Origin: Picosynechococcus sp. PCC 7117 | GTDB lineage: Bacteria; Cyanobacteriota; Cyanobacteriia; Cyanobacteriales; MRBY01 | DNA: 64,000 nucleotides | Assembly (NCBI RefSeq): GCF_001693275.1 | Contig: NZ_CP016477.1 | Span: 434,001-498,000, forward strand | Direction: 5' to 3' | Made by a program: the position numbers and the translations under genes | Notes under the pieces: model-generated | The model's database searches: none | What the model was told of the DNA's origin: nothing | The model's input: the letters and a program-made list of their open reading frames with translations, nothing else | In this document: positions 7,326 to 38,866 of the stretch, piece after piece | How positions within the stretch are numbered: position 1 is the stretch's first letter | How the letters are laid out: the number at the start of each line of letters is the position of its first letter

Positions 7326-7410
7326 CTAATTACCTTCACGGGTTGACATCACCCTCAACAGTATAGCCAGGTCTGTCATAATTTTTTGACGGAGAATTTG
7401 CTGTTGACTA

Positions 7411-7494
7411 TTAAAAATTCAAAGAACGATCTAGTACATCTGCCAAGCGATAAGAACAATCCTTTGGCATATCGATACCTGTTTCGGCGATCGC
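7411..7494 (-). pseudogene. Orphan 3' tail of a DUF29 gene (84-bp perfect repeat, copy 1)
   Basis: Identical over 84 bp to 8113-8196, the last 28 codons including the stop of the DUF29 gene at 8113-8535. One boundary is exactly the stop codon; the other is exactly the last base of a HIP1 octamer (GCGATCGC at 7487-7494). Immediately beyond it lies the stop codon of the 177-aa gene. No start or upstream DUF29 sequence is present. The 85 bp between 7326 and 7410 show nothing I recognise. Confidence 0.85.
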
Positions 7495-8028
7495 CTAAAA
7501 CAAATCTCCATATTCTGTCAACACTGCCAAAGCAACCTTTAGCTTTCGTCGGTTCGATTCGGAGGGATCAAGCTGAAATTCGATTTCGGCAATACGGCAT
7601 CGAGTTTCAATTCGAGTTCGGCGAGCCGCATATTCTTCCGTTCTAGCTCGGCGTTGCTCTTCTTCAAGTCTGCGTTGCTCCTCCTCAGCTCTTCGAGACT
7701 CAGCTGCTCGTTCCTGAGCCATTCTTCGTTCTTCCGCTTCAATTCTGCGTTGCTCCTCCTCAGCTCTTCGTTGTACTTCCTCAGCTCGGCGTTGTGCTTC
7801 TTCAACCAAGCGGTTTGTTTCTCGATTTCGACGGTTCCACTCAACGCCGAAATTAGCCAATGTAGCCAGGAGGGCTGCCACAGTACATCGGTTGCTCCAG
7901 ATTCTTGGTTCGGCGATGATGCCGAGAAATTCAAAGTCGGTTTGGTCATAGAACCTCAAAAACGCAATGGCGATTAACAGCAGGGTCAGAACGGTAGAGG
8001 GCAACAGCCCCAGAAAATTGAGCCACAT
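7495..8028 (-). CDS. Membrane-anchored coiled-coil protein of unknown function (177 aa)
   Basis: Not a family I can name. Residues 1-25 form a hydrophobic segment (LGLLPSTVLTLLLIAIAFLRF), and a second weaker one lies around residues 48-60 (VAALLATLANFGV). Residues 65-150 are almost entirely Glu, Arg, Gln and Ala in a heptad-like pattern (AEEEQRRIEAEERRM and similar), predicting a long charged coiled coil. A 27-bp repeat inside this region (7669-7695 and 7744-7770) shows it grew by in-frame duplication. The gene sits between the two DUF29-tail repeats, and its stop codon abuts the HIP1 breakpoint at 7494. Expression and function are open. Confidence 0.6.
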   Translation of the reverse strand: MWLNFLGLLPSTVLTLLLIAIAFLRFYDQTDFEFLGIIAEPRIWSNRCTVAALLATLANFGVEWNRRNRETNRLVEEAQRRAEEVQRRAEEEQRRIEAEERRMAQERAAESRRAEEEQRRLEEEQRRARTEEYAARRTRIETRCRIAEIEFQLDPSESNRRKLKVALAVLTEYGDLF

Positions 8029-8112
8029 CTAAATCAACAGCAGGATTTCACTATTTTACTCAACGCCCCCCAACTCTGGCTCCCTGGACAGGGATTGTGA
8101 GGTGATCGCCTT

Positions 8113-8196
8113 TTAAAAATTCAAAGAACGATCTAGTACATCTGCCAAGCGATAAGAACAATCCTTTGGCATATCGATACCTGTTTCGGCGATCGC
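8113..8196. repeat. 84-bp perfect repeat, copy 2 (DUF29 tail)
   Basis: Partner of 7411-7494 (offset 702 bp, no mismatch). It ends at the HIP1 octamer 8189-8196 and at the DUF29 stop codon. Confidence 0.95.
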
Positions 8197-8535
8197 ATTC
8201 AAACGGGCGTTGACATAGGCTTTATCAATCCACTGTTGCGTCAGAAAGCGTTTTAAACTGGGACTGTCTTCAAGGTATTGTTGAATATTATTGCGCTCCC
8301 GTTCAATGGTGACCTGCCAACTGCGAGACCGTTTTTGAGGTTGATGATCCCACTTTAATAGGTGATGTAAAATCAGCCGGATACTACTCAAAAGGCGATC
8401 GCGTTCCCGTTTAGACAAATCCCGAACCTCTTCCACTAAATTCTCGATATCAAGGGCACTGAACTGACCGTTTTCAAGCAATTCGGCCATGGTTTCGGCC
8501 CATTGACTAAAGTCTTGTTCATACAGGGTACTCAT
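8113..8535 (-). CDS. DUF29 family protein
   Basis: 140-aa protein with the DUF29 pattern: YEQDFSQWAETMAELL at the N-terminus, then LSKRERDRLLSSIRLILHHL, KRSRSWQVTIERERNNI, and DSPSLKRFLTQQWIDKAY. DUF29 proteins are small and helical, abundant in cyanobacteria and of unknown function. The last 84 bp are duplicated at 7411-7494. A second DUF29 member lies at 18657-19079 and a decayed third at 21562-21841. Confidence 0.85.
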   Translation of the reverse strand: MSTLYEQDFSQWAETMAELLENGQFSALDIENLVEEVRDLSKRERDRLLSSIRLILHHLLKWDHQPQKRSRSWQVTIERERNNIQQYLEDSPSLKRFLTQQWIDKAYVNARLNAIAETGIDMPKDCSYRLADVLDRSLNF

Positions 8536-8590
8536 GGGTCTTGCTGCCGATGGGTGGGTTTGTTGATTTTATTTCGATTATAGTGAGCTG

Positions 8591-8635
8591 TTATGGAGAG
8601 AAGAAGGCGAGTATGGGAATGATGCGGATTTTTAT
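8591..8635 (-). pseudogene. Possible vestige of a glycosyltransferase 5' end
   Basis: Directly downstream of intact wbpI, the position matching the start codon of the 5614-6906 glycosyltransferase reads ATA instead of ATG. The same frame continues for 14 codons (IKIRIIPILAFFSP) before a stop. This loosely resembles a GT4 opening such as MKILIIAHDFPP. It may be the relic of a gene that once followed wbpI here. The similarity beyond the repeat is short, so this is tentative. Confidence 0.2.
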
Positions 8636-8955
8636 GTACTGATGATTTAGCTAAGGAGGTGATGGACGATGAGTTGGGCGGCTTTTCCATCACCATAGGG
8701 TTTAGTTGTATCTAGCGGAGGTGGTACCGCTTCAAACCGCTGTTGTAGCTGTTCCTGCATGGTAGCTTGATCAACTGGTGGCAGTAAATAGTTCCAGCCC
8801 AGCTCAACGAGTTCGACCCATTCTGTTTCTTCCCGGAGCGTGACACAGGGGACACCATAGAAAAAAGCTTCTTTTTGGACACCGCCAGAGTCTGTGATAG
8901 TGAGCCGGGCATTTTTTTCGAGCATGACCATATCCAGGTAGCCGACGGGTTCAAT
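8626..8955. repeat. 330-bp direct repeat, copy 2 (wbpI 3' end)
   Basis: Partner of 6897-7226 in direct orientation. This copy is continuous with the full-length epimerase gene. Confidence 0.95.
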
Positions 8956-9735
8956 GATGCTTAAGGCTTGGGTCAGGGAGGCGAAAAGATCCGTTTTTTC
9001 TAAGGCTTTGCGAGTGCGGGGATGCAGGGGAAGCACGACTGGAATTTGTTTCGCTATTTCGCTGAGAACCCCGAAGATCGCCTGAAGTCGTTGGGGGTTA
9101 TCTGTATTTTCCGCGCGGTGGATAGTGGCCAGTAAATAGTTTCTGGGTTGTAGCTGGAGGGTCTGTAGAATTTGGCTGCGGCTTTCAGCTTTTTCTCCAT
9201 AGTAAAGGGCGGCATCATACATCACATCGCCAACTAAGGCTATTTGATCTGCCCTGATACCTTCATGATGGAGGTTGGCAACGGCGGTTTCGGTGGGGGC
9301 AAAAAGTAAATCAGAAATTCGGTCTGCCAGAATTCGGTTAATTTCTTCGGGCATCTTTTTGTTAAAAGAGTGGAGTCCGGCTTCGACGTGGGCGATGGGA
9401 AGGTGTAGTTTGGCTGCAGCTAAAGCGCCAGCAAGGGTCGAATTAGTATCGCCATAAATCAAAACCCAATCGGGTTGTTCTCTGATCAGAACGGCTTCAA
9501 TGGCACTGAGCATTTGTCCAGTTTGGGTGCCATGGGAACCAGAACCAATGCCTAAATGGTAATGGGGGGCTGGAATTTCCATTTCCTCGAAAAAAATGGC
9601 TGACATATTCTCATCGTAGTGTTGTCCGGTGTGGACAAGGATTTCTTTTAGACCAGGTGTGTTTTGAATGAGACGAGAAACGGTAGCCGCTTTGATGAAT
9701 TGGGGACGGGCACCAACAATAGTTACAGTTTTCAT
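8647..9735 (-). CDS. wbpI: Non-hydrolysing UDP-sugar 2-epimerase, WbpI type
   Basis: GT-B-fold epimerase that inverts C2 of a UDP-amino sugar. The N-terminus reads VTIVGARPQFIKAA, followed by VHTGQHYDENMS, the conserved VLIYGDTNSTLAGALAA, and HVEAGLHSFNKKMPEEINR near residue 115. The SFNxxMPEEINR form is what I recall for WbpI-like enzymes acting on diacetamido-uronic acids, whereas WecB proteins differ at this place. Later motifs are LLATIHRAENTD and LTDSGGVQKEAFF-like ITDSGGVQKEAFFYG. Length, 362 aa, is complete. With wbpA, wbpB and wbpD at the other end of the locus it fits conversion of UDP-GlcNAc(3NAc)A to UDP-ManNAc(3NAc)A. The WecB alternative (UDP-GlcNAc to UDP-ManNAc) cannot be fully excluded. 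Its 3' end is duplicated at 6897-7226. Confidence 0.82.
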   Translation of the reverse strand: MKTVTIVGARPQFIKAATVSRLIQNTPGLKEILVHTGQHYDENMSAIFFEEMEIPAPHYHLGIGSGSHGTQTGQMLSAIEAVLIREQPDWVLIYGDTNSTLAGALAAAKLHLPIAHVEAGLHSFNKKMPEEINRILADRISDLLFAPTETAVANLHHEGIRADQIALVGDVMYDAALYYGEKAESRSQILQTLQLQPRNYLLATIHRAENTDNPQRLQAIFGVLSEIAKQIPVVLPLHPRTRKALEKTDLFASLTQALSIIEPVGYLDMVMLEKNARLTITDSGGVQKEAFFYGVPCVTLREETEWVELVELGWNYLLPPVDQATMQEQLQQRFEAVPPPLDTTKPYGDGKAAQLIVHHLLS

Positions 9736-9755
9736 CCATTAATTTTTGTTGCACT

Positions 9756-11051
9756 TTATCTATATCCTGATTGATTATTCACTGTCATGACAATTTTATT
9801 TATAAAATCATCCAGGTTAAGCTGATAATTGGTAAATATTGAATTAACTTTACTGTTGCCTAGCTTGAGCTTTATCCAATTTTCAATATCCATATCATTT
9901 AATGGTACGGTTTCTGCAATTTTTAGATTTCGCTCATGACTGTAATATTGACTACGATTACCGTCTGGTCGAATTTCTGGATCAAGCAATCCAGTACTCA
10001 CATTCATCCAGGCAGCTTCAATTGTCGTACTACTATTATAAGTGATATGTAAGTCAGACAAATTTAATATTATAGGAAGAGGAAATTCACTAGATTTTTC
10101 CCATTCTACTGTTTTGATATGTCCAAAGGTTTTAGCCAAATACTTTTCAATAGTTGAAAACTCAGAACCACGGATTTGTACTGGATGCAAACGAATTAGC
10201 CAATTGTAATTTTCACCCAATTTCAAAATTGTTCTTTCAAGAGCATAGGGCATGACACCATTCGGAACATATTGACCAAAATGTTTTTTCATTCCCCACT
10301 GAAGCGTGATTATAATAGTTGGCTTTTTGTTTTGTAAAAATAAATTTTTGTTTATAGTTTCTTTGACAAGAAAATCCTGATAATCATTAACCAGAAATCT
10401 CTGAAACCAAGGGTTGCCAATAATATCCACAGAAATTCTTTTTGAAGTAGTCCATTTTTTAAGGGCTTTGGCACTGCTTCCATCCCAGCAAAGAAAACCA
10501 CTAGGAAGATCTATAGGGGAAGTATTTTTTCTATACTTTTGTCCATACCAAGAGTGTTGATCTGTAATAATGCCGTGCTGCAAATCATAGACGGGAATTG
10601 ATAGTGAGTGACAAGCTTGACATAAAGATGAGGATGGTTGGATAACAATAATAACTTTAGGGCAAGCAATACTTAAAATTTTGAGCCATAATTTTTTCCT
10701 CTTTTCCTTAACCCAAGACAACCTTTTCTTTTGTCCTTGAAAAATATTAATTAATCTAGATTGTAGAGCAATCCATAAAAAGCTTTGGTTGAAGCTTAAT
10801 GGATTACCATATCCTAATTGTCCAGTTAATTGAGAAAAAGGTTTCGCCACAGTGATAATTCTCAAATTTTTTTGTCTTAATAAATCACCCATACTATCTA
10901 GGAGATGAGCATAGGCTTGATTCTGATAATTATGTCCACGATTATTGTCGTGACAGATTAGCAAAACATCACAAGAATTGATAGAATTCCAATCGTCACT
11001 CTTAATAGATGAATAAAAAATTTGACTTATTTTTATTAATTTTTGAATCAT
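9756..11051 (-). CDS. Putative capsule/polysaccharide glycosyltransferase (unassigned family)
   Basis: 431-aa AT-rich gene not clearly assignable. The C-terminal half resembles GT-B transferases of the polysialyltransferase or CDP-glycerol type: VYDLQHGIITDQHSW near residue 178, NWLIRLHPVQIRGSE near 280, and DLHITYNSSTTIEAAW near 338, where a nucleotide-sugar site would sit. The N-terminus lacks a signal peptide. It lies 20 bp downstream of nothing else on its strand except the flippase gene, and just upstream of wbpI, inside the nonulosonate cassette. A role in transferring the cassette's sugar is plausible but inferred from position. Confidence 0.55.
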   Translation of the reverse strand: MIQKLIKISQIFYSSIKSDDWNSINSCDVLLICHDNNRGHNYQNQAYAHLLDSMGDLLRQKNLRIITVAKPFSQLTGQLGYGNPLSFNQSFLWIALQSRLINIFQGQKKRLSWVKEKRKKLWLKILSIACPKVIIVIQPSSSLCQACHSLSIPVYDLQHGIITDQHSWYGQKYRKNTSPIDLPSGFLCWDGSSAKALKKWTTSKRISVDIIGNPWFQRFLVNDYQDFLVKETINKNLFLQNKKPTIIITLQWGMKKHFGQYVPNGVMPYALERTILKLGENYNWLIRLHPVQIRGSEFSTIEKYLAKTFGHIKTVEWEKSSEFPLPIILNLSDLHITYNSSTTIEAAWMNVSTGLLDPEIRPDGNRSQYYSHERNLKIAETVPLNDMDIENWIKLKLGNSKVNSIFTNYQLNLDDFINKIVMTVNNQSGYR

Positions 11052-11131
11052 AATTGCTTTAGGAAATTACTGCTTATCAAGAATGTAGATAAAGATGAAT
11101 TTTACTTTGAAAGTGAGTCTTAATTGTATCT

Positions 11132-12442
11132 TTAGAAGTTATTTTGAAAGAACAGATTCCAAGGCATCTTATAGACTCTAGCAGATAGAAGCCATGTCAT
11201 TAGAAATGACAGAAAAAAAGCTATCATAGTCCCCTGGGCTGCGCCGATCGCCCCATTCCAGATAATCAAAAAGTAGCTACTGATTAAATTAACCACTGCT
11301 GTTAAAAATGTTACCCAAGCTAGTAAATGGGTCTTTTGGGCATAAAAAATATAGTTTGTCACCATATAATACATTCCCTGAAAAGCTCCACCTAAAGCAA
11401 TCCAGATGATAAACTGACTAGAACTGACAAATTTTTCCCCTACTAGGAATTTTAAAAAGAAAGGCGCTGTAGTAGCAAGAGTGATTGACAGCATTAAAAT
11501 ACAAAAATCATAAACATAGGTCAGTTTGACTATTTTTAGATTAAGTAGAACATCCTCTTTTTTTAGTTGACTAAAAAGCCAAGGAGAGTAAGCCCGATTA
11601 AAGGATGTTGCCAGTATGCTAATAATCATACCTATTTGGGAGCCTACTACATAAATACCAGTATCTTGGATTCCTACTAAATTAGTAATTAAGATTCGGT
11701 CAGTGGTGGCGATCGCTAAACCACCTAGAGTATGTGGAATAAGTGGGATTCCAAAGTCAAGGGCATTTTTAATATAAAAAAAACTAAATCTAGGTTTGAA
11801 GCAATTTTCTCGAAATAAAATTAATAAAGCTAGAGATGCAAATATTCCTACAGCAATTACTTGTGCATAAATTCTACCTTGCCAATTCATACCCCAAAAT
11901 ACTACAAATAGAATTGAAAAACTTACATTAATTAATGTTTGAATTATTTGGTAGGTTCCATACTGAATGGGCTTTTTTTGAACCTGCCAAAGAGTTAGAA
12001 GAATTGTAATAATAAATTGTCCTATACAAACCAAGAAAACTGCCGATAACCATTTTCTGGGGAATTGAGTAATTTGACTAATCCAGCCTGATAAAAATAG
12101 CGTGACTAAGCCAGTCAAAACTGAACTAGCAATTAAAATATAAAAACAATTAGTAATAAATTTGGGAAAATCAATTGATTCTTTTTCGTAAAATTGTCTG
12201 GCAATAGCCCCATGGACATTGAGACCGATAAAAGTGGCCATCATGCTGACTAAAACGGAAAACATAGAAACAATTCCATAATCTTCTGGACTTAGGAATC
12301 GAGTCATTATTGGCAAAACCAAAAAGGGTATCGCGCTATTTAAAATGTTGGTTATAGTGTAAATTCCCGCCGATTGAATTAAAGGATAGTAGAGACTTTT
12401 TCTAAAAAGCATATATTTTAAAATTGACAAATTACTTGCCAA
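11132..12442 (-). CDS. Polysaccharide flippase, Wzx/MATE-like
   Basis: Integral membrane protein of about 430 aa with 12 or more hydrophobic segments. It opens with a short cytoplasmic end followed by GIYTITNILNSAIPFLVLPI and MTRFLSPEDYGIVSMFSVL, the standard start of O-antigen flippases that move undecaprenyl-linked repeat units across the inner membrane. The annotated start is a TTG overlapping the upstream aminotransferase gene by 11 bp; an in-frame ATG at 12412 (MLFRKSLYYPLIQSAG) is an equally good start. AT-rich. No Wzy polymerase is visible in the window. Confidence 0.85.
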   Translation of the reverse strand: MASNLSILKYMLFRKSLYYPLIQSAGIYTITNILNSAIPFLVLPIMTRFLSPEDYGIVSMFSVLVSMMATFIGLNVHGAIARQFYEKESIDFPKFITNCFYILIASSVLTGLVTLFLSGWISQITQFPRKWLSAVFLVCIGQFIITILLTLWQVQKKPIQYGTYQIIQTLINVSFSILFVVFWGMNWQGRIYAQVIAVGIFASLALLILFRENCFKPRFSFFYIKNALDFGIPLIPHTLGGLAIATTDRILITNLVGIQDTGIYVVGSQIGMIISILATSFNRAYSPWLFSQLKKEDVLLNLKIVKLTYVYDFCILMLSITLATTAPFFLKFLVGEKFVSSSQFIIWIALGGAFQGMYYMVTNYIFYAQKTHLLAWVTFLTAVVNLISSYFLIIWNGAIGAAQGTMIAFFLSFLMTWLLSARVYKMPWNLFFQNNF

Positions 12443-13877
12443 TTATTGCTTCAATGGTTCTCTGAATATCAGAATTCGACATAGAAATAGCACTGGGTAA
12501 ACTCAGCCCTTGCTTGCTTAATTTTTCTGCTATTGGCAAAACTTCTCCTTGGTTATAAATTGGTTGGAGATGAAGGGGGGGAAATAAAGGACGGGTTTCT
12601 ATATTTTTGCTTTTTAATACTTCCATTAGCCGATCTCGATCCATTTCAAATGCTTGATCGTCAATCAAAATAGAATAAAGCCAAAATACACTGTTTGCCC
12701 AATCTGCTTCAGGGGGTAACTGGATACCTGCTACATTCTGCAATCCTGTAGTATAAGCCTGAGCAATTCGTTTTTTAGCGGCAATAATACCATCGACTCT
12801 CTCCATCTGGGCTACACCTAAAGCTGCTTGGATATTAGTCATTCGGTAGTTATACCCCAAGACGGGATGCCAATAGCGTTTTTGTGAGGACATTCCGTGA
12901 TCTCGTAAAATCCGAACTTTTTCAGCTAAATCACTACGATTTGTAACAACAATACCTCCTTCACCCGTTGTGATTATTTTGTTCCCGTAGAAACTAAATG
13001 TACCAAGATCGCCAATTCCTCCAACAATTTTTCCTTTATATAGAGCTCCTTGTGCCTCAGCCGCATCTTCAATCACTGACAAATTATATCGATTAGCAAT
13101 TTCTAAAATAGGATCTAGATTGCAAGGATGGCCGTATAAATGAACTGGAATAATTGCTTTCGTCTGAGGAGTAATAGATTGCTCAATTAAATCAGGATCG
13201 AGATTCCAAGTTTCTGTTTCACTATCAACAAATACTGGCCTAGCTCCTGTGTAGCTTACCGCGTTAGCTGTAGCAATAAAGGTTAAAGAAGGTACAATCA
13301 CTTCATCACCACAACCGATTCCCAGAGACAACAAGGCAAGATGAAGTGCCGTAGTTCCACTACTGGTAGCAATAGCATAACGAGTCCCACAAAAATCAGC
13401 CATCATTTCTTCAAAGCGAGTCACAAATTTACCTGCTGAAGAAACCCATCCAGTGAGAACACATTCCGTCACATAGCTTAATTCCTTTTCTCCCAAAGAA
13501 GGTTCAGCTACGGGCAAACGCATTCTATTATCGAAAATAGCCAAGTCAGCAACTCGATGATGTTCATCTAAAAGAGGAATTACCCTAACAGGATCGCTAA
13601 ATAAAGATGCCACCTCTTCGCTTGACATTCCTAAACGAGCCGTCTTGGAATTAGGTCTTGGTACATCTGATATAGGCGATTCCAAACCATAACCTTTCAG
13701 AATAGCTCTGCGAATATCCCCATCAGTAACTAAACCGACAAAAACCTGAGTATCTGGCTCAACAAGTAAAGCCGTACCGAGGGATCCTTGGTCAATTGCT
13801 TGCATTGCCTGTCTGATAGTGCCTTTGTATGACAAACTCATTGCTTGAATACTTTCTCTATTTATATTTGTCTTCAC
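12432..13877 (-). CDS. CBS-domain pair fused to DegT/DnrJ/EryC1/StrS aminotransferase
   Basis: 481-aa fusion starting at GTG. Residues about 10-118 form a CBS pair (ALLVEPDTQVFVGLVTDGDI at 36-55 and a second half ending in HHRVADLAIFDN). This pair resembles the one fused to nucleotidyltransferases of the PtmE type in nonulosonate clusters. Residues 122-481 are a PLP-dependent sugar aminotransferase: SSGTTALHLALLSLG near 172, VIEDAAEAQGALYKG near 268, and the Schiff-base lysine in SFYGNK (Lys300). The enzyme should aminate a keto-sugar nucleotide, either as LegC-like in nonulosonate synthesis or as WbpE-like in diacetamido-uronic acid synthesis; it is the only such enzyme in the locus. Its 3' end overlaps the flippase start and its start overlaps the methyltransferase stop by 4 bp. 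Confidence 0.85.
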   Translation of the reverse strand: MKTNINRESIQAMSLSYKGTIRQAMQAIDQGSLGTALLVEPDTQVFVGLVTDGDIRRAILKGYGLESPISDVPRPNSKTARLGMSSEEVASLFSDPVRVIPLLDEHHRVADLAIFDNRMRLPVAEPSLGEKELSYVTECVLTGWVSSAGKFVTRFEEMMADFCGTRYAIATSSGTTALHLALLSLGIGCGDEVIVPSLTFIATANAVSYTGARPVFVDSETETWNLDPDLIEQSITPQTKAIIPVHLYGHPCNLDPILEIANRYNLSVIEDAAEAQGALYKGKIVGGIGDLGTFSFYGNKIITTGEGGIVVTNRSDLAEKVRILRDHGMSSQKRYWHPVLGYNYRMTNIQAALGVAQMERVDGIIAAKKRIAQAYTTGLQNVAGIQLPPEADWANSVFWLYSILIDDQAFEMDRDRLMEVLKSKNIETRPLFPPLHLQPIYNQGEVLPIAEKLSKQGLSLPSAISMSNSDIQRTIEAIIGK

Positions 13878-14773
13878 TTTCTGACCTCTACTATTAATGT
13901 ATCACTCGTTAATCGCTCTTCCCGATCGCGCTTATATAGAGATTCTATGCGTTGTAATATAGGCTTAGTTTCTTGGAAACTAGGTGCTGATAGTTGGGGT
14001 TTCCCATAATCTAGCCAATTAAGTAAATTACGCAACCCATAACGCTGTACTCCACGAATTGTAAACGCTGTAAAGCTTGCTTTCCTTAAAGCATATCCCA
14101 AAGTATCAGCAGTAAAGTAACTCAGATGAGCAACTTGCCAATAAAAATTTCTGTAATCAGATTGCTGTTCTAGCAACTCATCGTCACAATTAGGTACTTC
14201 AATCAGAAGATACCCGCCAGGAGCCACAAATTCAAAACACTGTTTTAAGAATTTAATTGGATTACGAACATGTTCTAAAACGTGGAATAAAGCAACTGCT
14301 TGAAATTGACCTCTATAAGGTTCTATAAATTCAGGTCTATCTATCCATCCCCGAATAAATTTTCCATCTAAATGAGCCTGAGCTAATTTGATACGACAAC
14401 TGCTAATATCTATGCCTAAAGCATCATATTTCTGTTGCGCTAGTAAATCAACGAAAAAACTATATCCACAACCAATATCTAAAACTTTTCCTCCGGGAAC
14501 TAAAGATTGAAGCCACTTAACACGCCTTTCAGTATCATCAACACTTTTTTTTCTCCATACTGCTAAATCAGTTTTACCCATAATATTTTGGGTTTGAGAA
14601 TCTGTATTATAAAACTCTGTTTCTTCTATTTCTGAAGGCAAAGGATATAGTTGAATGTGATCGCTGACCTGATGACGAACCACTTTAATTTTCTTTGAAG
14701 GATCATCTCGCAATGTTTCGCTGACTACTTCATAGCTGCCTTTTTGTTTTGTCAATAAATCTTCAATTTCCAT
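13874..14773 (-). CDS. Class I SAM-dependent methyltransferase
   Basis: 299-aa soluble protein. The SAM-binding motif I is GGKVLDIGCGYSFFVDLLAQ near residue 95, followed by DALGIDISSCRIKLAQ (motif II) and FQAVALFHVLEHVRNPIKFL (motif post-I/III), the UbiE/UbiG-type order. Residues 1-80 form an extra N-terminal segment before the Rossmann domain. It overlaps the CBS-aminotransferase gene by 4 bp, so the two are translationally coupled. It probably O- or N-methylates a sugar of the surface glycan; the acceptor is unknown. Confidence 0.8.
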   Translation of the reverse strand: MEIEDLLTKQKGSYEVVSETLRDDPSKKIKVVRHQVSDHIQLYPLPSEIEETEFYNTDSQTQNIMGKTDLAVWRKKSVDDTERRVKWLQSLVPGGKVLDIGCGYSFFVDLLAQQKYDALGIDISSCRIKLAQAHLDGKFIRGWIDRPEFIEPYRGQFQAVALFHVLEHVRNPIKFLKQCFEFVAPGGYLLIEVPNCDDELLEQQSDYRNFYWQVAHLSYFTADTLGYALRKASFTAFTIRGVQRYGLRNLLNWLDYGKPQLSAPSFQETKPILQRIESLYKRDREERLTSDTLIVEVRK

Positions 14774-14782
14774 AACTTTTTC

Positions 14783-15646
14783 TTAGTTCTCTAGTTTTAA
14801 AACTTTTTTTACAATTTCGTAATCTTGCTGTATGGATTCTAATTTACGATAAATTTCTAAAGTAATTGTTTTGCTCCTAAAATCGTAGGCTCTCAATTCG
14901 TCTAAAGTTTTGCTATCTTGATTAAACCCTCTGTTTTGGTCGTGAAATCCATCATTTTCGCTGATATGAATATAGTTAGTGTGATTAAATAAAGTGCCGA
15001 ATTGCTCTGCAAAATCAAGTTTTAATGAATTTACACTCACTTTTAAATGAGCAATATCTAGTAATAATTCAAACTCCAACCTGTCCCTAAATTCTAAATA
15101 ACTGTCATAATCTGTTAACAGAAAAGGATTTTGCCCATTATATGTTCTAGCATTAGTCTGAGAAAACACATTATTTTCTATATATAGTTCGATATCATCA
15201 CCAACAAGCTCTTTAAGAATATTAAAGGCACGACAAAAACGATTAATTGCCTGATTTTTATTAAATAACTTATCTTTGCCGATTTTTTGTCCGATCTCCT
15301 TGACTCTAATATCAACGAGGAAACCGGCATGAAACCCAAGTTTTTTAGATCCAAGTTTTTTAGACAGTGTGATCGCATTTTTGCAATGTTCTAAACTTCT
15401 CTCATAAATTTCATCATTGAGAGATGCTAAATTTAGAACAAAATGATTTTTAGGAGGTGGAAAGTAGTTATGAACCAAATAGTTTAAACTGTACTGATCT
15501 TGAAGCTGCAATAACTCCATTTCATAATCATTATAGTAATGAGTTCCCCCTGTAAGTTCTATATTTGTAAATCCTCTTTCAGCTATCTCTTTTACCGATT
15601 CCCCGATTTTTTTCCGTGAAGAACAAGCCGATGATATATAAATCAT
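14783..15646 (-). CDS. TIM-barrel sugar-phosphate isomerase/epimerase-like protein
   Basis: 287-aa protein of the xylose isomerase-like/AP endonuclease 2 superfamily. Visible features are an opening beta strand MIYISSACSSRKKIGES, LGFHAGFLVD near residue 104, ELYIENNVFSQ near 153, ELLLDIAHLKVSV near 195 and NYIHISENDGFHDQN near 225. Glu, Asp and His residues at these strand ends would form the metal site. Very AT-rich and HIP1-free. Close neighbours are neuB and an acetyltransferase, so it probably acts on a sugar intermediate of the same pathway. I do not know a defined nonulosonate step for this fold, so the reaction is open. Confidence 0.65.
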   Translation of the reverse strand: MIYISSACSSRKKIGESVKEIAERGFTNIELTGGTHYYNDYEMELLQLQDQYSLNYLVHNYFPPPKNHFVLNLASLNDEIYERSLEHCKNAITLSKKLGSKKLGFHAGFLVDIRVKEIGQKIGKDKLFNKNQAINRFCRAFNILKELVGDDIELYIENNVFSQTNARTYNGQNPFLLTDYDSYLEFRDRLEFELLLDIAHLKVSVNSLKLDFAEQFGTLFNHTNYIHISENDGFHDQNRGFNQDSKTLDELRAYDFRSKTITLEIYRKLESIQQDYEIVKKVLKLEN

Positions 15647-15686
15647 AAATTATATTATAATTTTTTGAGCTGATTAATTTTAAGTT

Positions 15687-16151
15687 TTATATTTCCAAAA
15701 AGCCAACTAATTGTTCATTTTCTCGCTCTTTAAATTTATATTTTAGTGCTTTATAGAGATTCAAAGCTGGATTATTATCTGCATACACTTTTAAGCGAAT
15801 TTGATTGGCACCTTTAGTTCGAGCTGCTGCGTGAAGAAAAAACATCATTAATTTACCCAATCCCTTTTTTCTATATGCAGGGTGAATATAAACTCCTAAA
15901 CTAGGAACTGTGTAACCTTCATCCCATCCCCGGAGCATTCCATAGCCCAGTATAGTTCCGTGCCTTACTAAAATATAGTACAAATCCTGGCCTATATACT
16001 TGCATAATTTTTTTGCATACTCTTCAGTAAAGGGGTGAGGATGAAATATTAGCGAATCCCCATTTTCTTCTATGGTTTTAAATAAACTTACCAACTGTGG
16101 CTCCCATTGCCGATCTAAAATTCTGCATTCTAATTCTGATGAATTTTTCAT
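15687..16151 (-). CDS. GNAT family N-acetyltransferase
   Basis: 154-aa acetyltransferase. The acetyl-CoA-binding loop is seen as GVYIHPAYRKKGLGKLMMFFLH (R-x2-G-x-G/A type) near residues 86-108, followed by IRLKVYADNNPALNLYKALKYK, the usual C-terminal end of the fold. In this context it may N-acetylate the amino sugar made by the CBS-aminotransferase, as PseH or LegH do in other bacteria; that role is inferred from position. Gene is AT-rich and about 40 bp upstream of the TIM-barrel gene. Confidence 0.75.
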   Translation of the reverse strand: MKNSSELECRILDRQWEPQLVSLFKTIEENGDSLIFHPHPFTEEYAKKLCKYIGQDLYYILVRHGTILGYGMLRGWDEGYTVPSLGVYIHPAYRKKGLGKLMMFFLHAAARTKGANQIRLKVYADNNPALNLYKALKYKFKERENEQLVGFLEI

Positions 16152-16193
16152 AGATTTATTAAATGATATTTCAATTATTCTTCTAGAAGCTTA

Positions 16194-17255
16194 CTAACTC
16201 CAATCTATGTCAGATAAGGTCAAGTAACTTTCAGCAGAGATATCTCTAGTCACTCCCTTACCCAGAATGCGATCGTACCAAGACGGTTGCAATCCAAAGC
16301 CAGGACGCTTACAGACCAAATCCTCTGCTGATATAATTTTTCCGGCTTTTATATGCCGACGTGCCACCAAACTTTTCTGCATCATTGGCTTGTTTGGCAA
16401 CTCACTTGCTGTCGGCTGTTTAATACCATCTCCTAAAGCTGCTTCCACATCTCGAATAGTTTGAACTAATGCAGAGAGTTCAGCAGGTTCTAAGGAGGCT
16501 CGGTGATCGGGGCCGTTCAAAGTACGATCTAAAGTAAAATGCTTTTCGACCACACAAGCTCCTATTGCCACTGCCCAAGGACTAGCTCCAATTCCTGTTG
16601 TATGGTCAGAGAAGCCGACAGGAAAACCGAAAGCCTGTTCTAGCGTTTTCATCGCTCGTAAGTTTACTTCATTGATAGGGGCAGGATACTCAGAAGTACA
16701 ATGCAAAATTACTATTTTTTCTGCTATTCCTCCTGTTTTTATCGTGTTTACTGCTTCCTCGACTTCTGCTAAATTTGACATCCCTGTAGATAAAATAACA
16801 GGACGCCCCTTGCTTGCTACATAACGCAAAAATGGTAGATTAGTTGTATCCGTTGAGGCAATTTTATAAGCAGCAACATCAAGATGAGCGAGCATATCAA
16901 CACTTTTGTTCTCATAGGGAGTACACATATATATAATCCCTGCGCGATCGCAGTGTGTTTTTAATTCTTTGTGCTGATCGTCATTCAGTTCTACAGACTT
17001 GAGCATTTCATACTGACTTCCAGGCTTTCCAGTTGTTTCAACTTGATATTGTGCTTTTGGAGCTTCTGGAGTAATTAATTCTTCCGTTATAAAACTTTGA
17101 AATTTAACAGCATCCGCACCTGCTTTGACGGCAGCATCAACTAACTGATGAGCTAATTCTATGTTGCCATTATGGTTTACTCCAGCCTCAGCAATAATAA
17201 AGCAAGGTTTATCCTGACCAATTTCTCGATTACCAATTCGCACATATTGACTCAT
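16194..17255 (-). CDS. neuB: Nonulosonic acid (sialic-acid-type) synthase NeuB
   Basis: Condenses an N-acetylated hexosamine-type sugar with phosphoenolpyruvate to a nine-carbon nonulosonic acid. The NeuB barrel is seen as IIAEAGVNHNG (residues 20-30), DAVKFQSF, YKIASTDTTNLPFLRYVA, HCTSEYPAP and VGFSDHTTGIGASPWAVAIG. Residues from about 290 on form the C-terminal SAF (antifreeze-like) domain, KSLVARRHIKAGKIISAEDL. Length, 353 aa, is complete. neuA lies 2 bp upstream in the same operon. Sequence alone does not separate sialic, legionaminic and pseudaminic acid synthases; no NeuC, LegB or PseB partner is visible nearby. Confidence 0.9.
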   Translation of the reverse strand: MSQYVRIGNREIGQDKPCFIIAEAGVNHNGNIELAHQLVDAAVKAGADAVKFQSFITEELITPEAPKAQYQVETTGKPGSQYEMLKSVELNDDQHKELKTHCDRAGIIYMCTPYENKSVDMLAHLDVAAYKIASTDTTNLPFLRYVASKGRPVILSTGMSNLAEVEEAVNTIKTGGIAEKIVILHCTSEYPAPINEVNLRAMKTLEQAFGFPVGFSDHTTGIGASPWAVAIGACVVEKHFTLDRTLNGPDHRASLEPAELSALVQTIRDVEAALGDGIKQPTASELPNKPMMQKSLVARRHIKAGKIISAEDLVCKRPGFGLQPSWYDRILGKGVTRDISAESYLTLSDIDWS

Positions 17256-17257
17256 GT

Positions 17258-17959
17258 TTATTTGCCCTTCATCCTTTCTCTAATTAAAACTTCTGCAATT
17301 GTAAAGTCTAGTTCACTATCTATATCGATACTTCGATTTTCAGGCATCAGATAGCCTTGCATATCCCCACCATATAGCATTTTATTTTGCCGAATAAACT
17401 TAGTTCTTATCACATCCACTGCACCATTTAGGCGATAAACAGGTGGTAGTTTCTGACTTTGATAGTATTCTCGTTCATCTTTGCCCTCCAAAAAAGGAAC
17501 GAGGCGATTTTCATCTATAAATGATTTCATCCAATACGGATGATGGTTTACTTTACATACTGAACGAATACAATCAGCGTCATGATTTTTGAGTTTTTCA
17601 ATGCATTGTTTCACATCTTCTGGAATTCGCAAAGGAGATGTAGGACGCAACCAAACCACCATATCTGGTATATAATTCTCTTTTTCTTTTAAAAAATCCA
17701 AAGTATGTAAACAGACTGGTAAATCTGGGGTTTTATCTAAGGCTAATTCAGCCGGACGTAAAAATGGAACTTCTGCTCCATATTGAGAACTAATTTTAGC
17801 AATTTCAGGAGAGTCCGTAGACACTAGAACTCTATTGTCAAGAGAAATAGCCAATTCTATAGTCCAAGCGATTAAAGGTTTTCCTGCCAAGTTACGAATA
17901 TTTTTCCCAGGTATTCTTTTTGATGCAGCTCTTGCTGGGATGATTATCAAAGTTCTCAT
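17258..17959 (-). CDS. neuA: CMP-nonulosonate cytidylyltransferase (NeuA-like)
   Basis: Activates the nonulosonic acid with CTP to the CMP-sugar used by glycosyltransferases. The nucleotide-binding motif IIPARAASKRIPGKNIR sits at residues 6-22, followed by GKPLIAWTIE, VLVSTDSPEIAKIS and the characteristic VWLRPTSPLR near residue 104. Length, 233 aa, is that of the NeuA/LegF/PseF family. It directly precedes neuB in the operon. The exact sugar is undetermined. Confidence 0.88.
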   Translation of the reverse strand: MRTLIIIPARAASKRIPGKNIRNLAGKPLIAWTIELAISLDNRVLVSTDSPEIAKISSQYGAEVPFLRPAELALDKTPDLPVCLHTLDFLKEKENYIPDMVVWLRPTSPLRIPEDVKQCIEKLKNHDADCIRSVCKVNHHPYWMKSFIDENRLVPFLEGKDEREYYQSQKLPPVYRLNGAVDVIRTKFIRQNKMLYGGDMQGYLMPENRSIDIDSELDFTIAEVLIRERMKGK

Positions 17960-33552: not shown

Positions 33553-36546
33553 ATGCAGCCCACCGATTCCAGCAAATTCACCGAACAAGCTTGGGATGCG
33601 ATCGTCAAGTCACAGGAGATCGCCCGTCGCTACAGACACCAAAATCTTGAGGTGGAACATCTACTCTTGTCATTGCTAGAACAGGAGCAGGAACAGGGAT
33701 TGGCCCAAACGATTTTGACCCAGACAGGTGTCGATGGGATCAGGCTCCAGCAGCAGTTAGAACGGTTTGCCCAACAACAGCCGAAACTAATGCGGGGCGA
33801 TCAGCTTTATCTTGGTCAAGGTTTAGATGTGATGTTAGACCGGGCCGAAGCCTGTCGTAACAGTTGGCAGGATGATTTTATTTCTGTTGAGCATTTGCTG
33901 GTGGGCTTTGCGGAGGATGAGCGGATTGGACGGCGATCGCTGAAAAGTTTTAACCTCGACCCCCAGGATCTCGAACTCAAGATCAAAGCCCTCAAAGGTA
34001 GCCAAAAGGTCACCGCCCAGAACCAAGAGGAAACTGGTAGCACCTATGGCGGCAGTCCCCTGAGTAAATATGGCCGCGATCTCACTGAACAGGCCAAGGA
34101 CGGCAAACTCGATCCGGTGATTGGGCGAGATGATGAGATTCGGCGCGTGATTCAGGTACTTTCTCGGCGCTCGAAAAATAATCCGGTTTTAATTGGGGAA
34201 CCAGGGGTTGGGAAAACGGCGATCGCCGAAGGTTTGGCCCAACGAATCGTCAATGGCGACGTGCCCGAATCCCTGAAAAATCGGCAGTTGATGTCCCTCG
34301 ATATGGGTTCCCTCATTGCCGGCGCAAAATACCGGGGCGAATTTGAAGCCCGTCTGCGGTCTGTGCTTAAAGAAGTGACCCAGTCCGACGGACAAATTAT
34401 TCTCTTCATTGATGAAGTCCATACCGTCGTCGGCGCAGGTTCCGCCAACGGTTCCATGGATGCCGGAAATCTCCTCAAACCGATGTTGGCACGGGGTGAA
34501 TTGCGCTGTATTGGGGCGACCACCCTCGACGAATTCCGCAAACATATCGAAAAAGATCCTGCCCTCGAACGGCGTTTCCAGCAGGTGTTAGTCCAACAGC
34601 CTACCGTCGAAGATACCGTCTCAATCCTGCGGGGCTTAAAAGAACGCTATGAACTGCACCACGGCGTCAACATTACCGACTCCGCCCTCGTTGCCGCTGC
34701 CACCCTCTCCAACCGCTACATCACCGACCGTTTTCTTCCCGATAAGGCGATCGATCTAGTAGACGAAGCTGCCGCCAAACTGAAAATGGAGATTACCTCC
34801 AAACCCGTTGAACTCGAAGCGATTGATCGTCGCCTAATGCAGCTACAAATGGAGCAGCTTTCCCTCAAAGGTGAAGAACAACTCGGCGCGACTTCCCCGG
34901 CCTATCTCGCTTCCAAGGAACGTTTAGATCGGATCGACGAAGAAATTAAAAGCCTTGAAATCCAACAGAAAGACCTTTCTTCCCAGTGGCTCGCCGAGAA
35001 AAATCTCATCGATGAAATTAATTCCCTCAAGGAAGAGGAAGAACAACTGCGTCTCCAGGTGGAACAGGCAGAACGCGCCTATGACCTCAACAAAGCGGCT
35101 CAATTGAAATATGGACGTTTAGAAGGTTTACAAGCAGAACTCAGTCAAAAAGAAGTCAAACTGCTGGAAATCCAAGCCGCCGGAGATGCCATGCTCCGGG
35201 AACAAGTTACGGAAGCTGACATTGCCGAAATTGTTGCCCGTTGGACAGGGATTCCCGTGAATCGCTTGATGGAATCCGAACGGCAAAAACTGCTGCAACT
35301 CGAAGGACATTTGCACGAGCGGGTGATCGGTCAGCAGGAAGCGGTGGAAGCGGTCTCGGCGGCAATTCGTCGTGCCAGAGCAGGGATGAAGGATCCTAGT
35401 CGTCCGATTGGTTCGTTTATGTTTATGGGGCCGACAGGGGTCGGGAAAACAGAATTAGCGCGGGCTTTAGCAGCGTTCCTCTTTGATAGTGAAGAGGCGA
35501 TGGTACGCATTGATATGTCCGAATATATGGAAAAACATGCGGTATCCCGATTAATCGGTGCGCCTCCGGGTTATGTGGGCTACGAAGAAGGAGGACAACT
35601 GTCGGAGGCGGTGCGTCGTCGTCCCTATTCGGTGGTGCTGCTGGATGAGGTGGAAAAAGCCCATAAGGATGTTTTTAATATCCTGTTGCAGGTGCTGGAT
35701 GATGGGCGGATCACCGATTCCCAAGGGCGGGTGGTGGATTTCCGCAATACGATCATTGTGATGACGAGCAATATTGGTAGTGAATTTATCCTGAGTTTGT
35801 CGGGGGATGACGCCAACTACGACAAGATGCGGGACAAAGTGACGGGGGCATTACGGAAAAATTTCCGCCCAGAATTTTTGAACCGGATTGATGAACTGAT
35901 TATTTTCCACACCCTGAAGCGGGATGAGTTGCGCGAGATTGTCAAACTGCAAATTCATCGCATTGAAAAGCTCCTGGCCGACCAAAAAATTACATTGTCG
36001 CTCACGGATGCAGCCCTCGACCATGTAGTAGAAGCAGGCTATGACCCGACCTTTGGGGCAAGACCTTTAAAACGGGCGATTCAACGGGAACTCGAAAACC
36101 CGATCGCCAATCGCATTTTAGAAACGGACTTTATGGAAGGCGATCGCATTTTAGTTGATTGCGTCGAGGGTGCCTTGGTTTTTGATCGGCAACGACCTGA
36201 ACGAGAAGTGCCAGAGGTGATTTCGGAAGAGGCGATCGCCCCAGCACCGGAAGAGCAACCCATAGAAACAGAAGAGGCATCTATAACAGAAGCAGAAATC
36301 CTTCCTGTCGTCGCACCGGATGAAATTGTGGTTGCAGAGGCTGAACTTGATGAACCCGATGATGATTGGGGTGAAGATGAGACGACTGTTTCCTTTGATG
36401 CCGAACAACCCGATGATCAATGGTTTGGTGCCGATGAGCCAGAGCAAACAGCTAATGGTTTAGAATCTCCAATCAGAGAAACTAACCCGCCAGCCTATGT
36501 TGGCGCGGATTCCGATTCAGAGGAAAACTGGTTAGATTCTATCTAG
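33553..36546 (+). CDS. clpB: ATP-dependent disaggregase ClpB with acidic C-terminal extension
   Basis: Hsp100 chaperone that rescues aggregated proteins with DnaK. Residues 1-150 are the Clp N-domain. NBD1 has the Walker [18 protein letters not shown] near 218 and [15 protein letters not shown]. The coiled-coil middle domain spans about 410-530. NBD2 has [17 protein letters not shown] near 622 and [16 protein letters not shown]. The usual end is reached near residue 870 ([12 protein letters not shown]). A further 125 residues follow, rich in Glu, Asp, Pro and Ala, with three acidic tryptophan motifs ([23 protein letters not shown]). At 997 aa it is clearly longer than most ClpB. No CIRCE element was seen upstream; TATACT at 33509-33514 is a possible -10 box. 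Confidence 0.95.
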
Positions 36547-36704
36547 GTGTTGAAGCAAAAGGATAATGTCAAGCTCGAATTATTCTTGGGCGTTATGTAC
36601 AAAGAAATACTTTGTAACTTGCTAAAGTTATCCTTCTAAAATTTATAAAACTTCAAAAAAACTGGTATCCACATAGGAGATAATGGGCGAAGAAACACAA
36701 TGTT

Positions 36705-38063
36705 TTGAGTGCCGTGATTCCTGATCCCAGTTCATTTCGTAACGAAACAGAAGTCGAAAGTAAATTAATTGTTCATTACTTATTGCCAAAACTAGGTTAT
36801 CCGCCTAACACTTGGTACCAAGAAGTTGCCTTTGGCAATATTCGTCTTGATTTTATGGCGTTTACCGCGACGGTAATGCCTTTCACTTGGGATAGTAGCT
36901 CTCCTCTAAATCTTATTATTGAAGCCAAAAGTCCGAGAGAAAATTTAGATCGTCATGTGCCTCGTCTAAGAACCTATTTGACCAGTTTAAAGTCCCCCTA
37001 TGGAATATTAACGAATGGCAAAGATTTTCGTATTTACGAACGAGATGGCTCAAAAATAGATCTGTGTTTTCAATGCTCAGGATCAGAAATTGATGCTAAC
37101 CTAGAAAAAATCAAGTTTTTAGTTGGTCGTGAAAGTTTAAAACCCGTTCCCAGTAGTCGGAAAAAGTCTGAAATTCAACCAGAAAAAAATTTAACCGCGC
37201 GAAAAAATCGTATGAAAATCATCGCTGTTTATCACAATAAAGGCGGAGTTGGCAAAACAACAACAGTAGTCAATCTCGCCGCCGCATTGCAGAAGCAAGG
37301 CAAACGGATTTTAATTGTTGATTTGGATAGCCAAGCAAATACGACTTATGCAACTGGTTTGGCAAAATTTCTTGATGAGAAAGACGATGACCTTAAAAAT
37401 AACAATATTTTGCAACTCATTCAATCTAGAGAAAAATATCCAGTCAAAGCAGTTGCAAGACCCTCAACTTACGTATCCCAAGGTATTGATGTAATTCCAT
37501 CTCATATTGAGATGATGAAATATGAATCGGAATTAACCCGGATTGAACCAGCCAAAACTCGACTATTATCTAAGCTAAAAGATGTCAAGAATGATTATGA
37601 TATTGTTCTAATTGATACTCCTCCCTCACTTAATTTGTATGCTCGTATTGCTTTACTAAGTGCAGGTTATCTAATCATTCCTTCAGACCTTAAACCATTT
37701 GCTAATGAGGGTTTAAATAATGTCAAAGATTTTATCGCGGATATAAACGAAGCCAAAGATATGTTTGGCATGTCTCCTTTGAAAATTTTAGGTGTTTTAC
37801 CGTCGAAGATTTCAACGAATGCTCGCTTTGTCCAGTATACATATCCCAAACGTCGCAGAATGGTCGAACAACGTTATGGTTTTCCCCTAATGTCTGCGGC
37901 AATTTATGAACGAGAAGATCTTGCCAAAGCGTTGGAAAATACCTTGGAGTATGGAGAAGAAGATATTCCGGATCCACTCTCTATTTTTGACTATAAATCA
38001 GATTCTGTATCAGCCCATGAATTTGCAATGCTAGCTAGTGAAGTATTAGAGAAAATCAATTAA
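36705..38063 (+). CDS. PD-(D/E)xK nuclease-like domain fused to ParA-type ATPase
   Basis: 452-aa fusion. Residues 1-135 resemble the N-terminal domain of type I restriction R subunits: Glu18 in EVESKLIVHYLLPKLGYPP, Asp49 in IRLDFMAF and Glu73-x-Lys75 in LIIEAKSP, i.e. all residues of a PD-(D/E)xK site. After a charged linker, residues 170-452 are a ParA/MinD ATPase with the deviant Walker A in YHNKGGVGKTTTVVNLAAAL, then ILIVDLDSQANTTYA, and DIVLIDTPPSLNLYA (Walker B). The start is TTG at 36705 or GTG at 36714; an internal ATG at 37212 could yield ParA alone. The ParB-like gene follows 3 bp downstream. AT-rich and HIP1-free, unlike clpB and prlC, so probably acquired. Partition, defence or both are possible roles. 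Confidence 0.8.
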   Translation: MSAVIPDPSSFRNETEVESKLIVHYLLPKLGYPPNTWYQEVAFGNIRLDFMAFTATVMPFTWDSSSPLNLIIEAKSPRENLDRHVPRLRTYLTSLKSPYGILTNGKDFRIYERDGSKIDLCFQCSGSEIDANLEKIKFLVGRESLKPVPSSRKKSEIQPEKNLTARKNRMKIIAVYHNKGGVGKTTTVVNLAAALQKQGKRILIVDLDSQANTTYATGLAKFLDEKDDDLKNNNILQLIQSREKYPVKAVARPSTYVSQGIDVIPSHIEMMKYESELTRIEPAKTRLLSKLKDVKNDYDIVLIDTPPSLNLYARIALLSAGYLIIPSDLKPFANEGLNNVKDFIADINEAKDMFGMSPLKILGVLPSKISTNARFVQYTYPKRRRMVEQRYGFPLMSAAIYEREDLAKALENTLEYGEEDIPDPLSIFDYKSDSVSAHEFAMLASEVLEKIN

Positions 38064-38066
38064 ATT

Positions 38067-38828
38067 ATGCTAGAAAACCTTTTAAAAATTCAACTAATTG
38101 ATATTCTATCTGTTGATAGCCCAGAACCCCGATCTGGTTTTTCTAAGGATAAAATTGAAACTTTGGCCAATAGTTTTTTAACAGTCGGTGGGAACTCTCA
38201 ACCTATTCTTGTTCAACGCTTAGATTTTGATTCATTTACCGTTGTTTCTGGACATTTAGAATATTATGCAGCAGTCCGAGCCAGAGAAATCAATGATGAT
38301 TTTGAGATGATTAACGCGATCATTATTACTCCTGAAAATGAAGCGCAGATCAAGCATCAATATGATTATTTAAATACTGTGCAAGAAAGTTCTGCGACTA
38401 ACTCTTTGGAGCATAGTTTAAACAAAAATGAAATTGCTAATTTAGAAAAAAATCTTTTAGCTCACCTTCAAGATCAACTTAAATTTGAAGTTTCTCGCTT
38501 AGAAAATAATTTATCGAGAAATCTTGAGCAAAAATTTGATGGTGTTAAAATTCTTGTGCCTCGTGATGAGGATCACCTAGAAGCCTTTAATGTTTCTGAT
38601 TTCAAAATTTTAGTCGATAAACTAGGTTCTGCTGGCTTTACTGGTAAGAAAGGTCAGAAAATGGCAACAGCAATTATTCAAGAGAGAAAAAAAAGTCGCT
38701 TTAGTTCTTTGGGAGAAATTATTAACAGAGTGCGGTTACAGAACAAAAATAGAGCTATTACTGAAACTTCAATGGTAAAAATTCTAGATGCTTGGAATCG
38801 ATTTATTGATGTAGAAGAAACTAAATAA
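38067..38828 (+). CDS. ParB-like protein with C-terminal helix-hairpin-helix-like region
   Basis: 253 aa. Residues 20-75 follow the ParB/sulfiredoxin N-terminal pattern: FSKDKIETLANSFLTVGG, then QPILVQRLDFDSFTVVSG and HLEYYAAVRAREI, where ParB proteins have the GERRxxA box. Residues 120-165 are probably coiled coil. Residues 180-225 (AGFTGKKGQKMATAIIQERK then FSSLGEIINRV) resemble a helix-hairpin-helix DNA-binding unit. No helix-turn-helix typical of chromosomal ParB is obvious. It pairs with the ParA fusion in an operon and shares its AT-rich composition. Confidence 0.65.
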   Translation: MLENLLKIQLIDILSVDSPEPRSGFSKDKIETLANSFLTVGGNSQPILVQRLDFDSFTVVSGHLEYYAAVRAREINDDFEMINAIIITPENEAQIKHQYDYLNTVQESSATNSLEHSLNKNEIANLEKNLLAHLQDQLKFEVSRLENNLSRNLEQKFDGVKILVPRDEDHLEAFNVSDFKILVDKLGSAGFTGKKGQKMATAIIQERKKSRFSSLGEIINRVRLQNKNRAITETSMVKILDAWNRFIDVEETK

Positions 38829-38831
38829 AAG

Positions 38832-38866
38832 AAAAAGCCTTTGGAATATCCCAAAAGCCTTTTTTT
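38832..38866 (+). terminator. Terminator after the ParA/ParB-like operon, probably bidirectional
   Basis: AAAAAGCCTTTGG and CCCAAAAGCCTTTTTTT form an imperfect stem around AATAT. The T run on the plus strand follows the ParB-like gene by a few bases; the A run on the other side could serve prlC, whose stop is at 38888 on the minus strand. Confidence 0.6.

Follow-up and report, generated by a model that had tools for sequence, protein, structure and literature searches.

A nuclease-ParA fusion with a linked ParB-like partner: a two-gene module in cyanobacterial chromosomes

Background

The familiar task of ParA ATPases is to move DNA or cargo, that of restriction nucleases to cut DNA; in the locus described here both are parts of one conserved protein. 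The N-terminal nuclease domain of HsdR (Pfam HSDR_N and HSDR_N_2; 3h1t, EcoR124I) and those of DrdV and BpuSI have a PD-(D/E)xK fold and residues that are also present in this fusion, but in these enzymes a helicase or a methylase is joined to the nuclease, whereas the fusion carries ParA instead. Many PD-(D/E)xK nucleases need two domains for a double-strand break, and ParA proteins form dimers with ATP and show no preference for particular sequences when they bind DNA. In the ParABS systems (Soj/Spo0J, plasmid ParA/ParB) a complete ParA is accompanied by a downstream gene for a ParB-fold protein, as it is here, and the fold of the downstream partner is also that of the non-canonical ParB-fold proteins Noc, KorB, PadC, SerK and sulfiredoxin. 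McdA and other cyanobacterial cargo-positioning ParA/MinD ATPases have the ParA fold of the fusion, and McdA structures are among the sequence matches; these ATPases are not known to have a nuclease domain or a ParB-fold partner. As far as the main text of a 2025 survey of ParB-fold proteins goes (PMC12704722), only a DUF3850 fusion is consistently found beside parA, and a term search of that main text for HhH, helix-hairpin-helix and Rho_N gave no hits. The component families are known; in open-licence PMC papers I found no description of a nuclease-ParA fusion or of the present combination.

Results

The window, i.e. the whole stretch of 64,000 nucleotides that was analysed, corresponds to positions 434001-498000 of contig C1 in an assembly of 3.43 Mb. 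Two co-directional genes, 3 bp apart as the initial annotation had it, lie between clpB, which ends at 36546, and a gene for a peptidase of family M3 (Pfam) on the opposite strand. No other long gene is present in this gap of the window. The features are:

36546..38831, no strand: AT-rich segment in the gap between clpB and the M3 peptidase gene; homology to the closest relative (genome G081) ends at 36545 and restarts at 38832
36714..37148, + strand: HsdR-type PD-(D/E)xK nuclease domain of the fusion, with GTG 36714 as start and TTG 36705 as alternative
37149..37211, + strand: weakly conserved linker of the fusion (mean top-residue frequency 0.35)
37212..38063, + strand: ParA ATPase domain with the deviant Walker A motif KGGVGKTT; an in-frame ATG at 37212 opens the domain
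38067..38828, + strand: ParB-like partner gene; ParB/Srx fold, long helix, HhH-like C-terminal domain
38832..38863, no strand: terminator-like inverted repeat between convergent genes, in the flank and outside the insert

The open reading frame of the fusion (36705-38063, + strand) comprises 452 amino acids counted from the TTG, and that of the partner (38067-38828, + strand) 253. The frame from TTG 36705 exists, but the family alignment makes the GTG at 36714, nine bases inside, the more plausible start; the residue numbers of the nuclease core (E14, D49, E73, K75) are counted from the TTG. Pfam assigns residues 20-114 to HSDR_N_2 (E 3.3e-6, 27.6 bits, cut-off 25) and residues 170-350 to AAA_31 (E 3.3e-52), the full ParA domain beginning around residue 170, which bears out the reading of one open frame as a PD-(D/E)xK core joined to a complete ParA ATPase. 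Pfam finds no helicase domain in the fusion of the window, so that it does not qualify as a type I restriction-modification enzyme, which would have an SF2 helicase motor in the same protein. The deviant Walker A motif is intact, and K179 to T186 are conserved in all 29 rows of a family alignment, as expected for the signature lysine of the ParA/MinD family. A terminator had been thought to close the unit; the repeat is there, but because 38832-38863 lies in sequence common to G081, it is assigned to the flank and not to the module.

Conservation of the nuclease half was read from an alignment of 99 rows over 400 amino acids; the counts refer to 97 rows (95 distinct, as there are two pairs of identical rows), with L095 omitted for its different N-terminal part and L194 for its broken frame. 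E14, K20, R47, E73 and K75 are invariant and D49 is present in 96/97 rows (E73 and K75 in 97/97 each). E18, D49, E73 and K75 had been named as the core from the window alone, where all four are found, but E18 turns out to be the least conserved among them, being Ile in 3/97 rows, while E14 is invariant. In L170, a full-length frame, Gly replaces the catalytic Asp49 (window numbering), which makes this copy a natural candidate for a cleavage-dead form. The smaller alignment of 29 rows was drawn from 41 loci (40 relatives and the window) by length and by an N-terminal motif that includes N13-E14, so that both residues are conserved by construction in that set; the alignment of 99 rows is free of this selection. 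Mean top-residue frequencies in the 29 rows are 0.76 for the nuclease, 0.35 for the linker and 0.71 for ParA. The dN/dS of the nuclease domain ranges from 0.04 to 0.38 in the 30 closest pairs listed, which are not independent of each other, and by this measure the nuclease and ParA domains are alike under purifying selection, with the linker freer.

An AlphaFold2 model of the nuclease domain (pLDDT 89, pTM 0.85) has an alpha-beta-beta-beta-alpha-beta core, and its best structural matches in VIA-align are the N-terminal domains of HsdR from V. vulnificus (Z 12.1), DrdV (11.4) and BpuSI (10.6). Foldseek with the same model returned nothing at E ≤0.001 (best E 3.5e-3), and a sequence profile of the domain against the PDB nothing at E 0.1, so that the assignment of the fold rests on the VIA-align scores, the HSDR_N_2 match and the residues. 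The predicted fold and the D...ExK signature together point to an HsdR-type PD-(D/E)xK domain, in agreement with the initial proposal. From what is known of PD-(D/E)xK nucleases, I infer that the fusion would cleave DNA in a metal-dependent manner.

The partner matches Pfam ParB_N (E 5.1e-6, 26.9 bits, cut-off 26.3) and is predicted to consist of a ParB/Srx-fold domain (approximately residues 7-107), a long helix (120-163) and an HhH-like domain (approximately 166-247); the model has a pLDDT of 90 and a pTM of 0.48, which makes the relative placing of the domains unreliable. Its N-terminal domain is of the ParB/Noc/sulfiredoxin type and superposes on M. xanthus ParB bound to CDP with Z 12.1 (rmsd 2.9 over 91 residues), so that judged by the model the partner has the fold of the ParB-fold NTP-binding proteins. 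The C-terminal end is called HhH-like because of its best structural matches (C-terminal domain of KIF22, Z 8.4; N-terminal domain of TEFM, Z 8.3, both near the level where common arrangements turn up), matches to DUF655 and HhH models that are both below the Pfam cut-off, and a match of the family profile to AF1531 (E 0.0019). The original description as a ParB-like HhH protein holds for the ParB part; its last part is softened to HhH-like. The family profile also matches residues 1343-1406 of PDB chain 9k3a_B, named only 'Tail protein' (E 1.1e-9).

Two features of canonical ParB proteins were used as a test, the GxxR motif of box II and the ParA-binding motif LG(R/K)GL, as given in the main text of PMC12704722. 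Unlike the ParB proteins of ParABS systems, the partner has neither: the arginine of GxxR is present in 0/52 partners (48/52 have Glu at that column), and LG(R/K)GL in 0/52 within the first 60 residues. No Pfam model of a HTH domain matches the partner at E 10 or better. The C-terminal domain is swapped among close relatives. Thus the partners of L082 and L086 are 89% identical over 95 N-terminal residues while their C-termini are without similarity, and the same lack of C-terminal similarity is observed in 11 of 134 partner pairs with N-terminal parts at least 75% identical (107 of the 111 partners; L107, L106, L097, L099, L083 and L079 were omitted beforehand, and the pair L164/L181 may reflect a contig end). 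Three C-terminal types occur: HhH-like, Rho_N (in L086 just under the Pfam cut-off) and a third type. This exchangeable end probably binds DNA.

Of 386 sampled cyanobacterial genomes, 56 match the fusion at E 1e-40 (34/142 genera) and 52 match the partner at E 1e-5. Nuclease and ParA are in one open reading frame in at least 43 of the 386, a manual count of 34 full-length rows and 9 with both parts in one open frame. The spread is patchy even within the genus of the window, where the fusion is found in 2/6 genomes at E 1e-20 and in none of the other 4. Conserved pairing had been expected across relatives, and the partner gene is indeed directly downstream in 38/41 loci, and a partner match lies downstream in 78 of the best 80 of 581 GTDB candidates, a few of them truncated (e.g. 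L171, L196); the two sets of loci overlap, and the 581 candidates include plain ParA genes. The two loci without a partner match are a contig end and a broken copy. The hypothesis that the join is a sequencing error or due to chance is rejected by the single frame in these genomes, the pairing and the purifying selection. Since one conserved protein with a dedicated partner occurs in about 1 in 9 sampled cyanobacterial genomes, the link between nuclease and ParA is selected and no accident.

Among the best 80 of the 581 candidates, loci titled as non-cyanobacterial come from Desulfonema magnum (a complete chromosome), Beggiatoa, Parabeggiatoa, Thioploca, Thiomargarita (two), Thiorhodospira, Desulfobacteraceae, a deltaproteobacterial bin and a Bacteroidales bin; sulphur bacteria are thus among the carriers, and some of the loci are from metagenome bins. 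The fusion looks rare outside the cyanobacteria, because no further genome matched at E 1e-60 among 246 sampled in the phylum of Desulfonema and 397 in that of Thiorhodospira. In the best ParA tree, made by a quick method and with many weak forks, the non-cyanobacterial copies are nested among the cyanobacterial ones in three places; of the 3 changes, supported branches force 1, and 2 are forced for the Pseudomonadota. The nesting fits horizontal transfer, but the supported branches would also allow the cyanobacterial set to have arisen only once. The idea of a transferred module is thus favoured by the patchy spread, the nesting and the AT-rich composition, but the supported branches force only part of that nesting. 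In 20/40 relatives the module lies on a contig of at least 2.6 Mb, and the contigs of the other 20 are too small for a decision; every copy that can be placed in this way is chromosomal. It is, apparently, a chromosomal module that moves horizontally.

The fused nuclease is absent in 13 loci, 11 of which keep the partner gene, so the pair may work without cutting. Nuclease remnants lie upstream of ParA in 2 of the 13. On the best ParA tree these loci do not group together, which may reflect several losses of the nuclease. Halves encoded by separate genes would speak against a true fusion; natural split genes were not seen, only ParA without the nuclease domain and copies that look frameshifted. 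The break is within the Walker A region in L092 and a little beyond it in L096, while of L097 only the front part is in the stretch called; all three are read as frameshifts or broken copies. In L095 (9274-14652) SF1 helicase domains precede the same ParA. The gene upstream matches helicases and, weakly, the nucleases DUF559/MTES_1575; nearby is another HSDR_N_2-ParA, its frame broken, with a ParB_N-Rho_N partner. In L098 (6852-11270), from a distant cyanobacterium, a ParA-only module lies directly downstream of clpB, as does the module in the window.

The module stands out as an AT-rich island, as initially described, with a GC content of 0.35-0.37 versus approximately 0.50 in its surroundings. 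The window contains 88 HIP1 sites (0.77 expected), which together with the relatives found marks it as cyanobacterial. The gap of about 36.24-39.03 kb noticed earlier is exact, with zero sites between 36239 and 39030. It is not unique in the window, as 11716-16944 is also free of HIP1, longer, and AT-rich too. The region 4418-17959 of the window is mostly of low GC (0.31-0.42 in most genes, approximately 0.44-0.51 at 6918-9735) and by eye contains genes of a surface-polysaccharide kind (glycosyltransferases, a flippase-like protein, a NeuB-like synthase and a cytidylyltransferase). Module GC is lower than that of the flanks in 39/39 loci measured, and HIP1 density is 0.18 per kb in the module versus 0.80 in the flanks, a difference partly expected from the AT content (39 of the 41 loci, two with short flanks being omitted; a few broken loci count a second gene other than the partner).

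In the closest relative, G081 (96% identity in the peptidase), the corresponding gap of approximately 10.3 kb (L123:9447-19550) holds type I hsdR, hsdM and hsdS, HEPN/MNT and PIN genes and a DEDDh-AAA protein, while in G387 (L117:2773-3777), another member of the genus, it holds two AT-rich open reading frames of 154 and 174 amino acids, with no match in Pfam or PADLOC. The module, at this one site, thus sits in a variable position used by restriction genes in the closest relative. No tRNA gene is nearer than 46.5 kb.

The neighbours of the module do not point to a defence island in general. PADLOC models show no sign of an excess beside the module: near it 13 families were found, each in 1-3 of 131 proteins, and farther out 87 families in 131 proteins, mostly single proteins matched by many models, the comparison being one of families and not of proteins matched. 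The near sample is 131 of 142 proteins and the far sample 131 of 263 (a random draw of 142 without its last 11). Eleven near proteins were removed by hand, namely the nuclease pieces of L092 and L096, module relatives in L095 and L103, three proteins from L106 and a single one from each of L097, L102, L105 and the window. In the near set, to which this count is confined, 6/131 proteins belong to the putative restriction endonuclease family Uma2. Of 112 neighbour families the 25 commonest include no methylase, and none was spotted by eye in the loci inspected; in contrast to type I HsdR, no HsdM or HsdS lies beside the fusion in the window or, by eye, in the loci printed. The neighbours are common to genera or families in some groups, indicating slow turnover, and in the non-cyanobacterial loci they are mostly housekeeping-like by eye. 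A second, distant ParA gene is located at most 3 genes from the module in 13/41 loci, mostly on the opposite strand (L069:10913-11797, L082:10798-11712, L086:7992-8876 and ten other loci), and in some of these loci a gene for a class I tRNA synthetase recurs together with glycosyltransferases.

Searches with the proteins themselves gave a similar picture. PADLOC-DB 2.0.0 has no match to the partner and three to the fusion, each of them confined to ParA and the best scoring 36 bits across 44 residues, so that by sequence neither protein fits a known anti-phage model of that database. The fusion is absent from 72,556 plasmid records at E 1e-30, where its separate parts give only weak matches. 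A first scan of viral contigs found no fusion; ParA alone occurs in 25 viral loci, and L229 has one weak partner match without a matching open frame. Phage records give 134 matches, none over 80% of the query; the 15 matches listed fall within ParA, and the partner of a relative has no match among phages. On these searches a viral or phage origin was rejected. In 75 upstream regions, perfect inverted repeats were not in excess over mononucleotide shuffles, and no parS-like site of this perfect kind was found near the operon; with its additional nuclease, no HTH match and no plasmid match, the module departs from ParABS.

Discussion

As ParA proteins form dimers, many nucleases of this type cut in pairs, and the partner has an exchangeable end, the simplest view is an adaptor-targeted nuclease switched by an ATPase. 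I tentatively favour such an ATP-gated nuclease, probably directed against foreign DNA, at somewhat less than even confidence. The two genes would form a self-contained module for DNA surveillance and cutting, in which the ParB-like protein binds DNA via its exchangeable C-terminal domain (HhH-like in the window), while its conserved N-terminal domain brings in the fusion by the ParA half. ATP-driven dimerisation of ParA on the DNA would then bring two HsdR-type nuclease domains together and result in a cut, with the ATPase cycle gating the nuclease. Cleavage, gating and recruitment are modelled here on known ParA dimers and PD-(D/E)xK nucleases. Foreign DNA, e.g. plasmids or phages, is the likely target, because the module is patchy, AT-rich and present in several phyla, and the closest relative has restriction genes at the site; it is also the least certain part of the proposal. 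The earlier suggestion of defence or plasmid interference accordingly finds some backing in the insertion site, but not in the survey of neighbours, and it stays a conjecture.

Alternatively, the module could serve the maintenance or positioning of chromosomal DNA, ParA and the ParB-like protein organising DNA or DNA-bound cargo and the nuclease processing branched or damaged DNA. I consider this the main alternative, though less likely than the first reading; the slow turnover in some groups, the lack of defence neighbours and the survival of nuclease-less pairs leave room for it. The long contigs in half of the relatives (the rest undecided), the intact ParA core, the 11 loci in which ParA and partner persist without nuclease and the nearby second ParA gene in 13/41 loci would all agree with such a role. 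HhH domains in many cases recognise DNA by its structure and not by its sequence, which would suit it as well, and the benefit would be felt in cells that are polyploid, filamentous or very large; the non-cyanobacterial carriers include Beggiatoa, Thioploca, Thiomargarita and Desulfonema, which are large or filamentous. However, there is no match at E 1e-40 in 330/386 cyanobacteria, nor at E 1e-20 in 4/6 members of the genus, so the module is not needed for maintenance in general. The spread of carriers over several phyla, the absence of the canonical ParA-binding motif from 52/52 partners and the lack of an upstream excess of perfect palindromes (against mononucleotide shuffles only) do not point in this direction either.

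A toxin-antitoxin-like or addiction module, in which a harmful fusion is restrained by its tightly linked downstream partner, is improbable. It would account for the close linkage of a two-gene unit, the AT-rich composition and the absent or frameshifted nuclease part in several loci, and toxin-antitoxin genes occupy the same gap in G081; yet the partner is retained where the nuclease is absent, its exchangeable, probably DNA-binding domain resembles a targeting subunit more than an antitoxin, and plasmids gave no match. Hardly credible is the idea, also considered in the initial annotation, that the ParA and ParB-like pair in AT-rich DNA is what remains of the partition system of an integrated element such as a plasmid, given the 0/72,556 plasmids with the fusion at E 1e-30 (its parts matching weakly), the 20/40 relatives with contigs of at least 2.6 Mb, the purifying selection on both domains, a nearest tRNA gene at least 46.5 kb off and the lack of any other long gene in the gap. 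With this part dropped, what stands of the initial interpretation is a chromosomal module of an HsdR-type nuclease-ParA fusion and its linked partner.

It is possible, if on the whole doubtful, that the adaptor-targeted nuclease constitutes an undescribed class of DNA interference, with ParA as the ATP-gated dimerisation switch of a restriction nuclease and targets chosen via exchangeable domains of a ParB-fold adaptor; these would then do what the target-setting domains of HsdS do in type I enzymes. The partner, lacking the GxxR arginine and having an exchangeable end, offers a natural test of a ParB fold without that arginine. Should the module act against incoming DNA, it would represent a defence architecture of a new kind, relevant to the barriers to transformation in cyanobacteria; if it tends the chromosome instead, it would be a case of a nuclease built into a positioning system.
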